This document shows, piece by piece, positions 28,435 to 31,600 of a DNA stretch of 64,000 nt; the first letter of the stretch is position 1, and each line of letters begins with the position of its first letter. This DNA comes from an uncultured Planktomarina sp. (GTDB lineage: Bacteria; Pseudomonadota; Alphaproteobacteria; Rhodobacterales; Rhodobacteraceae), in NCBI GenBank assembly GCA_905181815.1, contig CAJIZA010000001.1, forward strand, positions 930,001 through 994,000. The letters run 5' to 3'. Both the position numbers and the translations under genes were made by a program. The notes beneath the pieces are model-generated. The model made no database searches. It saw only the letters and a program-made list of their open reading frames with translations, and had not been told where the DNA came from.

Positions 28435-29379
28435 TTAGCGGCGCACCACCACCTCATAGCCGCGCTCTTCGGGTTCATCATCGATGAGTTCTTGCGGAAA
28501 GCCAGGAGCATGAATGCTCAATCCGGTAGCCTGCTCCAGACGCTCAATGATCCGATCAGATTGCGCGCGGACACCGTAGCGTTTTTGCCCGTCGCTCATG
28601 ATGTCAATAATCATCGGTGAGATTTCTAAAGGCACGCCGTGATCATCGGCAATTTTTTGAAACAAGCCAATGTCTTTTTGCACCAAATCCATCGTAAAAT
28701 TCACATCTCGCGATCCCGAAAGGATCAACTGGCTTTCGGTTTCATGCACAAAAGAGGTGCCAGAAGACATCGCGATGGCCTCGTAGGTCATGCCAAGATC
28801 CATTCCAGCGGCTTTCATCACGGTCAGTGCTTCGCAAACCGTGATCAAATTGGCTGTGGCGAGGTAATTGGTCATCACTTTTAAAGTACTGGAATTTCCA
28901 ATCTCTCCCACATGCAAAATGCGCCGCCCAATATGGGTTAAGATTGGCAGAACTTTATCGAAGGTCGCACGGGTACAGCCAGCATAGATCGAGATATTGC
29001 CTGTATCGGCCCGATGGCAGCCGCCTGACACCGGACAATCCACAGCTTCACCGCCGGCGGCCAGAACCAACGCCCCTAGCCGCTTCACCTCTCTGGCATC
29101 TGTCGTTGACATCTCCATCCAAATCTTGCCACGCCCAGCATGGGGCAGCATCTCACTCACCACCGCATCACAGGCCGCAGGACTGGGCAGGCAGGTAATC
29201 ACTACATCACAGTCTTGCATCAACTGCGCTGGGCTTGACCCATCTTTGGCCCCACGCGCCACGAAATCTGCCACAAAGGCAGCATTAAGATCATGAACGC
29301 TGAGATCCATGCCGTTGCGCAGCAAACTGCCCGCCAATTTGCCCCCAACATTGCCCAACCCAATAAACCCAACTTTCAT
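28435..29379 (-). CDS. NAD(P)-dependent beta-hydroxyacid dehydrogenase (3-hydroxyisobutyrate dehydrogenase family)
   Basis: Oxidoreductase of the beta-hydroxyacid dehydrogenase family. The Rossmann motif MKVGFIGLGNVGGKLAGSLL is at the N-terminus, the substrate motif DCPVSGGCHRADTGNISIYA is near residue 118, and the catalytic lysine lies in NSSTLKVMTNYLATANL near residue 165. The 314-residue length is slightly above the usual ~295 because of a charged tail (DDEPEERGYEVVVRR). The substrate is not defined by sequence. It is divergent from the dehalogenase-like gene, leaving about 107 bases for shared regulation. Confidence 0.85.
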   Translation of the reverse strand: MKVGFIGLGNVGGKLAGSLLRNGMDLSVHDLNAAFVADFVARGAKDGSSPAQLMQDCDVVITCLPSPAACDAVVSEMLPHAGRGKIWMEMSTTDAREVKRLGALVLAAGGEAVDCPVSGGCHRADTGNISIYAGCTRATFDKVLPILTHIGRRILHVGEIGNSSTLKVMTNYLATANLITVCEALTVMKAAGMDLGMTYEAIAMSSGTSFVHETESQLILSGSRDVNFTMDLVQKDIGLFQKIADDHGVPLEISPMIIDIMSDGQKRYGVRAQSDRIIERLEQATGLSIHAPGFPQELIDDEPEERGYEVVVRR

Positions 29380-29442
29380 ACGTTTTCTCCCAAATGAACT
29401 TTGATCCTAGAAAATCAGCCATTGCCGACATGTCGCCCTCAT

Positions 29443-29470
29443 TTGCGACGCTTGTCATCTCCCTTATGAT
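29443..29470 (+). promoter_or_regulatory. Possible sigma-70 promoter for the dehalogenase-like gene
   Basis: TTGCGA (29443-29448) and TATGAT (29465-29470) are separated by 16 bases. Transcription would begin near 29477, about 10 bases before ATG 29487. This supports 29487 rather than 29394 as the start codon. The match is moderate and could be chance. Confidence 0.3.
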
Positions 29471-29486
29471 TTTGCAGGGTATTTTC

Positions 29487-30632
29487 ATGGAAAACCCAGA
29501 TGATCTTGCCGCTGGCATTGAAATCACACCGCAATTCGAAAGATTTTCGCAACGAAATGATGTGTTCTCCCGCGCATTTTGGGACGATACTGTCCGCAGC
29601 GCGGCGTCACAGGCCTTTTTTGCTAGCTATCGCATGGAAACCATCCCCCGCCGTGGCGACGGATTCACGCAAAAAGATTTTGCCCTGCGCAATGCCAGTT
29701 GGTTAATTTCAGACATTATGACGGATCGTTTCGCCGCCGACGGTAGGCGAGAAGGCTTTCAAGCCCCTATCAGCAACGATACTCCCGTAGCTGTGGAAAA
29801 GGTGCGTTTTGAAACCCCAAGCGACGCCGCCGCCAATGTTAAAAAAGCAGCGCGATTCTTTGGTGCAGGTCTCTGCGGTGTGACCGGCCTAGATCCGCGC
29901 TGGCTTTATGAGGATCGCGTAGATGTACGCGATATGTCCAAAGCGCCACTTGGCCTGCCAGAGGGGCTGACGCATGTGGTGGTGCTCGGTCACGAAATGG
30001 ATCAAGAATTGGTGCGCAGTTACCCCTCCGCCCTTGGAGGTGCCGCCACGGGGCGCGAATACAGCCATGAGGCAGCTATTGTCATGCAGCTGGCAGCCTA
30101 TATTCGCAATCTAGGCTATCAAGCCGTGGCCTCCATGAACGACACCGGCCTGGTCATCCCCATGGCTGTGCAGGCAGGGTTGGGCGAATACGCTAGAAAT
30201 CAATTGGTTATCACGCAAAAGTTCGGGCCAAGGCTGCGGTTTTCAAAAATTTTTACCGATATACCGCTGGAGGTGGACCGGCCGAAACGACCGGGTGTCG
30301 CAAAGTTTTGCGATATATGCACCAAATGTGCCGATGCCTGCCCGGTTAAAGCACTCCCAGTGGGGCCACCCAAATTTGGTGGTGGCCGATCTGCCATTCA
30401 AGGTGTCAAAAAATGGACCTCTGATGCGGAGAAATGCTTCTCGTTTTGGACCAAACTCAGCAGTGATTGTGCGATTTGTATGCGGGTTTGCCCCTTCAAC
30501 CGCGACTTCAGGAGCTGGCCACAGCGGCTTTGGCTCAAACTGGCCCTCTCACCGGCCCGAGGCCTAGCGCTTTGGCTCGACCGCTGGCGCCAGGGACGGT
30601 TGAAACCCGCGCAATGGTGGTCACGGCCTTGA
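29487..30632 (+). CDS. Reductive dehalogenase-like corrinoid/iron-sulfur protein (cytosolic)
   Basis: The protein resembles the RdhA catalytic core, the cobamide-dependent enzymes that remove halogens from organohalides. Visible hallmarks are KKAARFFGAGLCGVTGLDPR, AAYIRNLGYQAVA, MAVQAGLGEYARNQLVITQK and FGPRLRFSKIFTDIPLE. Two ferredoxin-type clusters follow: FCDICTKCADACP, and then KWTSDAEKCFSFW leading to DCAICMRVCPFN. There is no twin-arginine signal, no RdhB anchor next to it and no fused reductase domain, unlike respiratory RdhA or self-sufficient catabolic forms. ATG 29487 gives about 381 residues; an in-frame ATG at 29394 is possible. The distantly related QueG is an alternative, but the K-W-x2-D-x3-C-F-x-F-W pattern favours RdhA. 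The substrate is unknown. Confidence 0.78.
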   Translation: MENPDDLAAGIEITPQFERFSQRNDVFSRAFWDDTVRSAASQAFFASYRMETIPRRGDGFTQKDFALRNASWLISDIMTDRFAADGRREGFQAPISNDTPVAVEKVRFETPSDAAANVKKAARFFGAGLCGVTGLDPRWLYEDRVDVRDMSKAPLGLPEGLTHVVVLGHEMDQELVRSYPSALGGAATGREYSHEAAIVMQLAAYIRNLGYQAVASMNDTGLVIPMAVQAGLGEYARNQLVITQKFGPRLRFSKIFTDIPLEVDRPKRPGVAKFCDICTKCADACPVKALPVGPPKFGGGRSAIQGVKKWTSDAEKCFSFWTKLSSDCAICMRVCPFNRDFRSWPQRLWLKLALSPARGLALWLDRWRQGRLKPAQWWSRP

Positions 30633-30688: not shown

Positions 30689-31600
30689 ATGTCACTACGC
30701 CCCACACTTGAAACACGGCAAGCCACCCCAACCTTGGAAGGGGCCGGCGTCAAACTGCACCGCGCTTTTGGATTTCAAGATCCCTCGGAAATGGATCCCT
30801 TTTTGTTGTTTGACGATTTTCGCAATGAATTGCCGGAAGATTTTGAAAAAGGCTTTCCTTGGCATCCGCACCGCGGCATTGAAACCATTACCTATGTGCT
30901 GTCGGGCAGTGTTGAACATGGCGATAGCCTTGGAAACAAAGGCACACTAGGCGCAGGAGACGTACAATGGATGACCGCGGGCCGGGGAATCATGCATCAA
31001 GAAATGCCCCAGGGCAATCGCAACGGACAGATGCATGGCTTCCAACTGTGGGGAAACTTACCCGGCAGTTTGAAAATGACGGACCCAAGATATCAAGATG
31101 TAGCCGGCAAGGAAATTCCCGAGGCCATTGACGACGATGGCACGCGCGTGAAGGTAATTGTCGGCGAATATTGGGGTAAAAAAAGTCCGGTCGACGGCAT
31201 AGCCGCCGATCCGCAATATCTTGACATATATGTACCGCCAGGAGTTCAAAAGACCTTTAAAATAGACACTTATCGTCGGACCTTTGCTTATGTCTTCGAG
31301 GGCGCTGCGGCATTTGTGGATGCGGCAAAACCGACGGGCGTGCTGCTTGAAAAAGAAGTGGCCGGCCAAGAGGTAAATATTCGTGATCTTTCGGGCAATC
31401 GCACTTTGATTCGGTTTGGCAATGGCGATGAGATCAGCCTACACGCCGGCGCAGAAGGCGTGCGGTTTTTGTTGATCTCCGGTGCCCCTATTGATGAGCC
31501 CGTCGCCTGGCACGGTCCGATTGTAATGAACACCCGCGAAGAGCTGATGCAAGCCTTCAGCGAACTACGCAATGGCACGTTTATCAAGCCAGCGCATTAA
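30689..31600 (+). CDS. Pirin family protein
   Basis: Pirins are bicupin proteins. Some members act as quercetinases and others as regulators of central metabolism. The 303-residue product shows the N-terminal cupin with metal-binding residues in GFPWHPHRGIETITYVLSG and GRGIMHQEMP, and QLWGNLPGSLKMTDPRYQD. A C-terminal cupin ends in VNIRDLSGNRTLIRFGNGDE. ATG 30689 has AAAGGA about 7 bases upstream, and a longer frame from 30467 overlaps the dehalogenase-like gene and is rejected. Its 3' end overlaps the convergent TetR gene by 17 bases. Confidence 0.92.
   Translation: MSLRPTLETRQATPTLEGAGVKLHRAFGFQDPSEMDPFLLFDDFRNELPEDFEKGFPWHPHRGIETITYVLSGSVEHGDSLGNKGTLGAGDVQWMTAGRGIMHQEMPQGNRNGQMHGFQLWGNLPGSLKMTDPRYQDVAGKEIPEAIDDDGTRVKVIVGEYWGKKSPVDGIAADPQYLDIYVPPGVQKTFKIDTYRRTFAYVFEGAAAFVDAAKPTGVLLEKEVAGQEVNIRDLSGNRTLIRFGNGDEISLHAGAEGVRFLLISGAPIDEPVAWHGPIVMNTREELMQAFSELRNGTFIKPAH

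Follow-up and report, generated by a model that had tools for sequence, protein, structure and literature searches.

A stand-alone reductive dehalogenase gene in Planktomarina with a probable role in halophenol reduction

The window analyzed in this study is a stretch of 64,000 nucleotides from an uncultured Planktomarina sp. (contig CAJIZA010000001.1, positions 930,001 to 994,000), and Planktomarina are also the nearest named relatives of the host genome. It contains rdhA, a gene of the reductive dehalogenase (RdhA) type, within an open frame of 412 amino acids (aa) on the + strand (29394–30632), flanked by a divergent dehydrogenase gene and a pirin gene. The original prediction for this DNA had described a cytosolic RdhA of a new, stand-alone type, possibly acting on brominated phenols in one pathway with its neighbors. 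Here we examine the extent of the gene, its family and predicted fold, its relatives, and the probable substrate and electron supply of its product.

Reading frame and domain make-up

The RdhA-type open frame is confirmed, but its start is corrected: the gene had been given the full 29394–30632 extent, of which the open frame stands and the start at 29394 does not, codons 1–31 being free of coding constraint. Three comparisons against closely related Planktomarina gave a ratio of nonsynonymous to synonymous substitution rates (dN/dS) of 2.8, 1.5 and 0.8 for codons 1–31, where most substitutions fall at codon position 1, vs. 0.046, 0.092 and 0.051 for codons 32–412, the contrast being seen in all three. 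Moreover, rdhA starts at the equivalent of Met32 at five Planktomarina loci (L030–L034), whose orthologues are 380–381 aa long and in whose open frame no start codon was found upstream of that position; and just 14 bases separate 29394 from the start of the divergent dehydrogenase gene. Because of this dN/dS contrast, the starts at the five loci and the narrow gap to the neighbor, we place the start at the ATG at 29487, so that codons 1–31 are probably non-coding and the true coding sequence is probably 29487–30632 (+ strand, 381 aa). With this start, a hydrophobic stretch whose first residue is number 9 in the 412-aa frame would belong to an untranslated leader and represent neither a signal nor a membrane segment.

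The leader wrongly joined to the 412-aa frame (29394–29486, + strand), probably non-coding, is partly conserved at the DNA level among Planktomarina. Within this block lies a promoter-like site, TTGCGA-16-TATGAT (29443–29470, + strand), although the count of such sites is no better than chance (one found vs. 1.7 expected in shuffled sequences). At one locus (L151, G005:C8), the coding part of rdhA has been lost from between the dehydrogenase and pirin genes, and the leader, equivalent to window codons 1–31, persists.

The assignment to the RdhA family is borne out by the TIGR02486 profile (174.3 bits vs. a cut-off of 160.35, for the 412-aa reading). In the PDB, sequence similarity is highest to a respiratory RdhA (8q4h, 1.5e-51), followed by PceA of Sulfurospirillum multivorans (4.4e-43), NpRdhA (1.2e-27) and QueG (2.6e-11). 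The protein contains GLGEYARNQLVI and both 4Fe-4S motifs that define RdhA clusters, CXXCXXCXXXCP and CXXCXXXCP (PMC6797604): the first is CDICTKCADACP (residues 275–286; 30309–30344, + strand) and the second CAICMRVCP (residues 328–336; 30468–30494, + strand), with Cys317 upstream of it. The parts predicted to be missing are indeed not seen. The RRxFxK motif of a twin-arginine translocation (Tat) signal has no match in the window protein (the Sulfurospirillum control is positive at residue 11), and neither Pfam nor NCBIfam matches a flavin/2Fe-2S reductase domain anywhere in the 412 aa, while such domains are seen in a fused RdhA of the same genome. The predicted absence of rdhB holds for the adjoining genes, which are the dehydrogenase and the pirin (with 56 bases from the rdhA stop to the pirin start); no search for rdhB extended to the remainder of the genome.

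Predicted fold, relatives and probable function

Structure prediction, part of one of the checks originally proposed, supports a corrinoid-enzyme fold, and the pocket residues are conserved. Residues 5 to 380 of the model, for which alignment A2 was used (39 of the 80 loci from a contig scan covering the best 80 of 132 relatives, plus three), align only to residues 268–615 of NpRdhA, and the vestigial N-terminal duplicate of the cobalamin domain is thus absent. Alignment with PceA, interrupted by one single-residue gap just before the Trp, places Tyr192 (30060–30062), Asn218 (30138–30140), Arg251 (30237–30239) and Trp321 (30447–30449, all on the + strand) at PceA positions Tyr246, Asn272, Arg305 and Trp376, respectively. 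In PceA, Tyr246 can donate a proton, and the other three residues belong to a ring limiting access to the cobalt (PMC5500849). All four are invariant in the 33 stand-alone rows of our alignment. The Trp is shared with four of five respiratory rows, whereas ten fused and four other catabolic RdhA rows carry Lys in the Arg column and Arg in the Trp column. The Tyr and Arg/Lys expected in an RdhA pocket are present as Tyr192 and Arg251.

A tree of 76 rows groups the window protein with other stand-alone RdhAs (a clade of 33 rows, support 89/98) and, inside that clade, assigns it to a nested crown (30 rows, 99/92) that also contains the proteins of Roseobacter sp. MED193 and Pararhodobacter aggregans, each on a crown sub-branch other than that of the window protein. 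Fused and other catabolic RdhAs form a separate clade (14 rows, 100/99), as do QueG proteins (10 rows, 100/100). Rows of this RdhA type were drawn from 26 of the 80 scanned loci and from six of 16 nearest-relative loci; the other groups are represented by chosen examples, JtRdhA not being among them. In alignment A2, the MED193 (L094) and P. aggregans (L095) proteins each share 69% identity with the window protein.

Both of these orthologues are reported to be active on halophenols. Ros_A3X954 of Roseobacter sp. MED193, a Tat-less RdhA, was produced and tested in assays with titanium citrate and methyl viologen, in which it turned 2,6-dibromophenol into 2-bromophenol with a kcat of 1.1 per s and a KM of 71 uM (PMC13101508). 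It shares the single core, the clade and the lack of a Tat signal and reductase domain with the window protein, and its reported motifs, CDICTKCADACP and CAICMRVCP, are identical; it differs in genus and in that activity is known for Ros_A3X954 alone. The P. aggregans enzyme A0A2T7UTL8, reported to be 72.2% identical to Ros_A3X954, reduces 2,4,6-triiodophenol to phenol (Ng and Silver 2024, as cited in PMC13101508). It belongs to the same clade, but the genes next to it at L095 are different; the L095 copy scores 155.3 bits with TIGR02486, just below the cut-off, over a stretch trimmed to the match. These published data mean that the stand-alone type is not new, contrary to what had been proposed: the clade has already been expressed and assayed, and Tat-less RdhAs are also reported from Asgard archaea (PMC6737245). 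What the window gene adds is a Planktomarina member. A search of the literature by title and abstract opening found no report of a reductive dehalogenase in Planktomarina, and the main text of a paper on the RCA cluster (PMC10675870) contains none of the strings "dehalogen," "halogen" or "bromo."

Among better-known systems, the window protein resembles respiratory RdhAs (PceA of S. multivorans, 8q4h) in predicted fold, the two clusters and all four pocket residues of S. multivorans PceA, and differs in having no Tat signal and no adjoining rdhB. With the catabolic enzymes BhbA, JtRdhA (both fused) and NpRdhA (truncated), which act on ortho-halophenols, it shares a cytosolic location; unlike them, it has neither the vestigial N-terminal half nor the reductase, carries Arg in place of Lys and belongs to a different clade.

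The analysis shows, for the window protein itself, its family, its predicted fold, the residues of its clusters and pocket, and its orthology. Since two 69%-identical orthologues reportedly convert 2,6-dibromophenol and 2,4,6-triiodophenol, halophenols are likely substrates, in line with the brominated phenols first suggested. We consider it highly probable that the gene product is a reductive dehalogenase of the cytosol, with a single core and dependent on cobamide, orthologous to Ros_A3X954 and acting on halophenols. By analogy, the window copy would dehalogenate as its orthologues do, and it probably removes bromine from phenols. As in PceA, two 4Fe-4S clusters would deliver electrons to a base-off cobamide, which in its reduced state would remove an ortho-bromine or -iodine from the phenol; the proton would likely be supplied by Tyr192, while Arg251, Asn218 and Trp321 would shape the pocket. 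The reaction is expected to leave a phenol that has lost a single halogen, and it may serve carbon acquisition or detoxification. Overall, a cytosolic stand-alone RdhA, distinct from QueG, with halophenols as likely substrates and a separate electron donor, is retained from the original prediction, and a new third type and a pathway shared with the neighbors are not. The genome encodes CobN, so that B12 synthesis is likely (as judged from CobN alone).

A number of observations weigh against this assignment. On the side of the protein, PF13486, a domain that Ros_A3X954 is reported to contain (PMC13101508), reaches 22.8 bits (E 6e-5), slightly below the gathering cut-off of 24.3. Two of the pocket columns do not discriminate: Tyr occupies its column in all rows, including 10 of 10 for QueG, and Asn is found in one of five respiratory and three of four non-fused catabolic rows. 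The bootstrap value of the whole stand-alone clade is just 89, and long branches on several respiratory rows leave the deep order of groups unsure. As for Ros_A3X954, each protein is reported to contain 8.1 iron and 5.6 sulfur, which corresponds to about two clusters, but just 0.11 cobalt; one of six screened compounds was reported as converted; and the enzyme is described as highly oxygen-sensitive in vitro, losing its activity upon exposure (PMC13101508), which fits an aerobic surface-water host badly. Finally, 8 of the 20 Planktomarina genomes, several of which are incomplete, have a broken rdhA, its leader alone or no copy that could be found, so that the function of the gene looks dispensable.

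A different use of the same chemistry, i.e., a cobamide reductase retained from an RdhA ancestor and acting on a substrate other than halophenols, would agree with the fact that the literature consulted does not report a physiological substrate for any of the clade's enzymes and that the Ros_A3X954 screen comprised six compounds. We regard it as unlikely, given that the two orthologues reported to convert halophenols come from two other crown sub-branches and that none of the four pocket residues varies across the 33 rows.

With this gene, a published and assayed clade of cytosolic debrominases now reaches Planktomarina, one of the major roseobacter lineages in oceans from temperate to polar latitudes (PMC10675870). 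Much more tentative, and in our estimate somewhat less than an even prospect, is the broader proposition that aerobic surface-ocean roseobacters, including Planktomarina, debrominate natural algal phenols despite oxygen by means of a PceA-like, single-core RdhA that was relocated to the cytosol and is supplied by the general ferredoxin/flavodoxin pool with no dedicated partner. If true, it would imply a widespread oxic debromination step that relies on a kind of enzyme familiar otherwise from anaerobic respiration. The gene makes two questions accessible to experiment, namely (i) the donor of an RdhA that has no partner and (ii) the operation of an oxygen-sensitive B12 enzyme in oxic water, with relatives whose rdhA is broken or lost serving as natural comparisons.

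Electron supply and flanking genes

The need for a separate electron donor, as originally envisaged, is supported by the lack of a reductase domain in the window protein. Gene order was read at 81 loci (at 15 of them after a second choice of open frames), excluding frames shorter than 90 aa. A Pfam scan of 20 chosen rdhA neighbors (E <= 1e-8) left four without a match and identified none as a ferredoxin, flavodoxin or ferredoxin reductase. A search for ferredoxin-type Cys patterns in frames of 50–130 aa within 3 kb of rdhA at the 81 loci (68 of them with the full 3 kb on both flanks) likewise gave no convincing ferredoxin gene; its two matches, at L052 and L082, resemble shadow frames overlapping the dehydrogenase and the beginning of rdhA. 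As the enzyme has neither a reductase domain nor a partner gene, its electrons would have to come from one of the cell's general low-potential carriers, e.g., a housekeeping ferredoxin or flavodoxin, which we infer to be the natural donor; larger neighbors outside the Pfam scan are possible donors as well. Three roseobacters (L041, L048, L051) have an NAD(P) transhydrogenase gene in the vicinity of rdhA, and in Comamonas one adjoins BhbA.

The host genome encodes, outside the window, a second RdhA (L185:6589-9840, G000:C1), a fused protein of ~1,083 aa with a flavin/2Fe-2S reductase domain, next to genes for XdhC-like, hydroxyisobutyrate-dehydrogenase-like, short-chain dehydrogenase/reductase, IlvD/EDD and fumarylacetoacetate (FAA)-hydrolase proteins. 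The reductase domain of such a fused RdhA could in principle serve the stand-alone enzyme in trans. In a family sample of 159 genomes, the two types do co-occur: a fused RdhA is present in 16 of the 23 genomes with the stand-alone type (a count that includes two partial matches, G515 and G567, and one broken copy, G545) vs. 51 of the other 136 (p 0.004 in a one-sided Fisher test, with no correction for kinship). Nevertheless, no fused RdhA was found in the remaining 7 of 23, five of which (G022, G459, G497, G544, G549) have an unbroken, near-full-length stand-alone match and two of which (G515, G567) have the partial ones. The fused RdhA is thereby rejected as the sole donor, and its service in trans to the window enzyme appears very unlikely.

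The flanking genes, thought at first to belong possibly to the same pathway, are placed outside the system. They encode a 3-hydroxyisobutyrate-dehydrogenase-like protein (28435–29379, - strand; Pfam NAD_binding_2 and NAD_binding_11), kept in genomes that have no rdhA, and a pirin of 303 aa (30689–31600, + strand; Pfam Pirin and Pirin_C). Within the genus, an orthologue of the dehydrogenase (>=70% identity) occurs in 18 of 20 genomes and an open rdhA in 12 of 20. G004 and G009 have a broken copy of the latter and G005 just its leader, whereas no rdhA was found in G010, G012, G013, G018 and G019; in G018 the dehydrogenase is likewise not found. In the 159-genome sample, this rdhA type is present in 23 genomes, vs. 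84 for the dehydrogenase (E <= 1e-70; 6 of the 84 matching at merely 43–44%) and 90 for the pirin (E <= 1e-60).

A common pathway would account for the proximity of the three genes, with the dehydrogenase within 3 kb of rdhA in 11 and the pirin in 9 of the 23 genomes, and for the joint absence of rdhA and pirin from this place in G012, G013 and G019. Their overall distribution, as given by the family counts above, argues otherwise. The dehydrogenase and pirin genes lie 160–218 bp apart with no rdhA between them in 11 genomes and 1.0–2.2 kb apart in six more that also lack it there, while rdhA sits between them in six, one copy being broken. Beside a broken or lost rdhA, the pirin is intact (82–97% identity) in G004, G005, G009 and G010, as is the dehydrogenase, and the reverse case, an intact rdhA with the pirin missing, is seen at L031 and L032. 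In other lineages, rdhA has different, unrelated neighbors. We thus reject a shared pathway as highly improbable, since many genomes have the two genes as a pair separate from rdhA. On comparative grounds, rdhA is most plausibly an accessory gene set within an older dehydrogenase–pirin pair. At several Leisingera-like loci (L064, L067, L078, L096 and similar), members of one gene cluster intervene between the dehydrogenase and rdhA; the member at L096 is a LysR-type regulator and hence a candidate regulator of rdhA.

QueG and other RdhA-like genes

An identity as a QueG-type epoxyqueuosine reductase or tRNA-related paralogue has next to no probability left: the class III cobalamin fold, the two 4Fe-4S clusters and the catalytic Tyr are common to both, but the window protein falls outside the QueG clade in the tree, scores 52.8 bits with the QueG profile TIGR00276 (far below its cut-off of 200), and carries Arg251 and Trp321 where all ten QueG rows have Phe and Leu, so that tree placement, profile score and comparison of the structure model together reject it. 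Clustering inside QueG, which the original prediction had named as a refuting outcome, was thus not observed.

The relatives also encode a distinct group of shorter RdhA-like proteins of ~330 aa (L138:3223-4209, L139, L140:2545-3537, L142, L143, L147, L150 and L023). In the tree, 13 of 14 such rows form a clade of their own (97/99), with L144 alone on a long branch. Three members scanned with TIGR02486 score below the cut-off (90–119 bits), while the pocket Tyr and Arg are kept in 14 of 14 rows and the cluster Cys residues in all but one cell of the alignment. A hydantoinase A gene adjoins the RdhA-like gene at L138, the one Planktomarina locus scanned in this respect. Another alphaproteobacterial genome carries five tandem RdhA-like genes of 343–392 aa on one strand (L141:1955-8046, G453:C11), with an AraC-type regulator upstream of the array.
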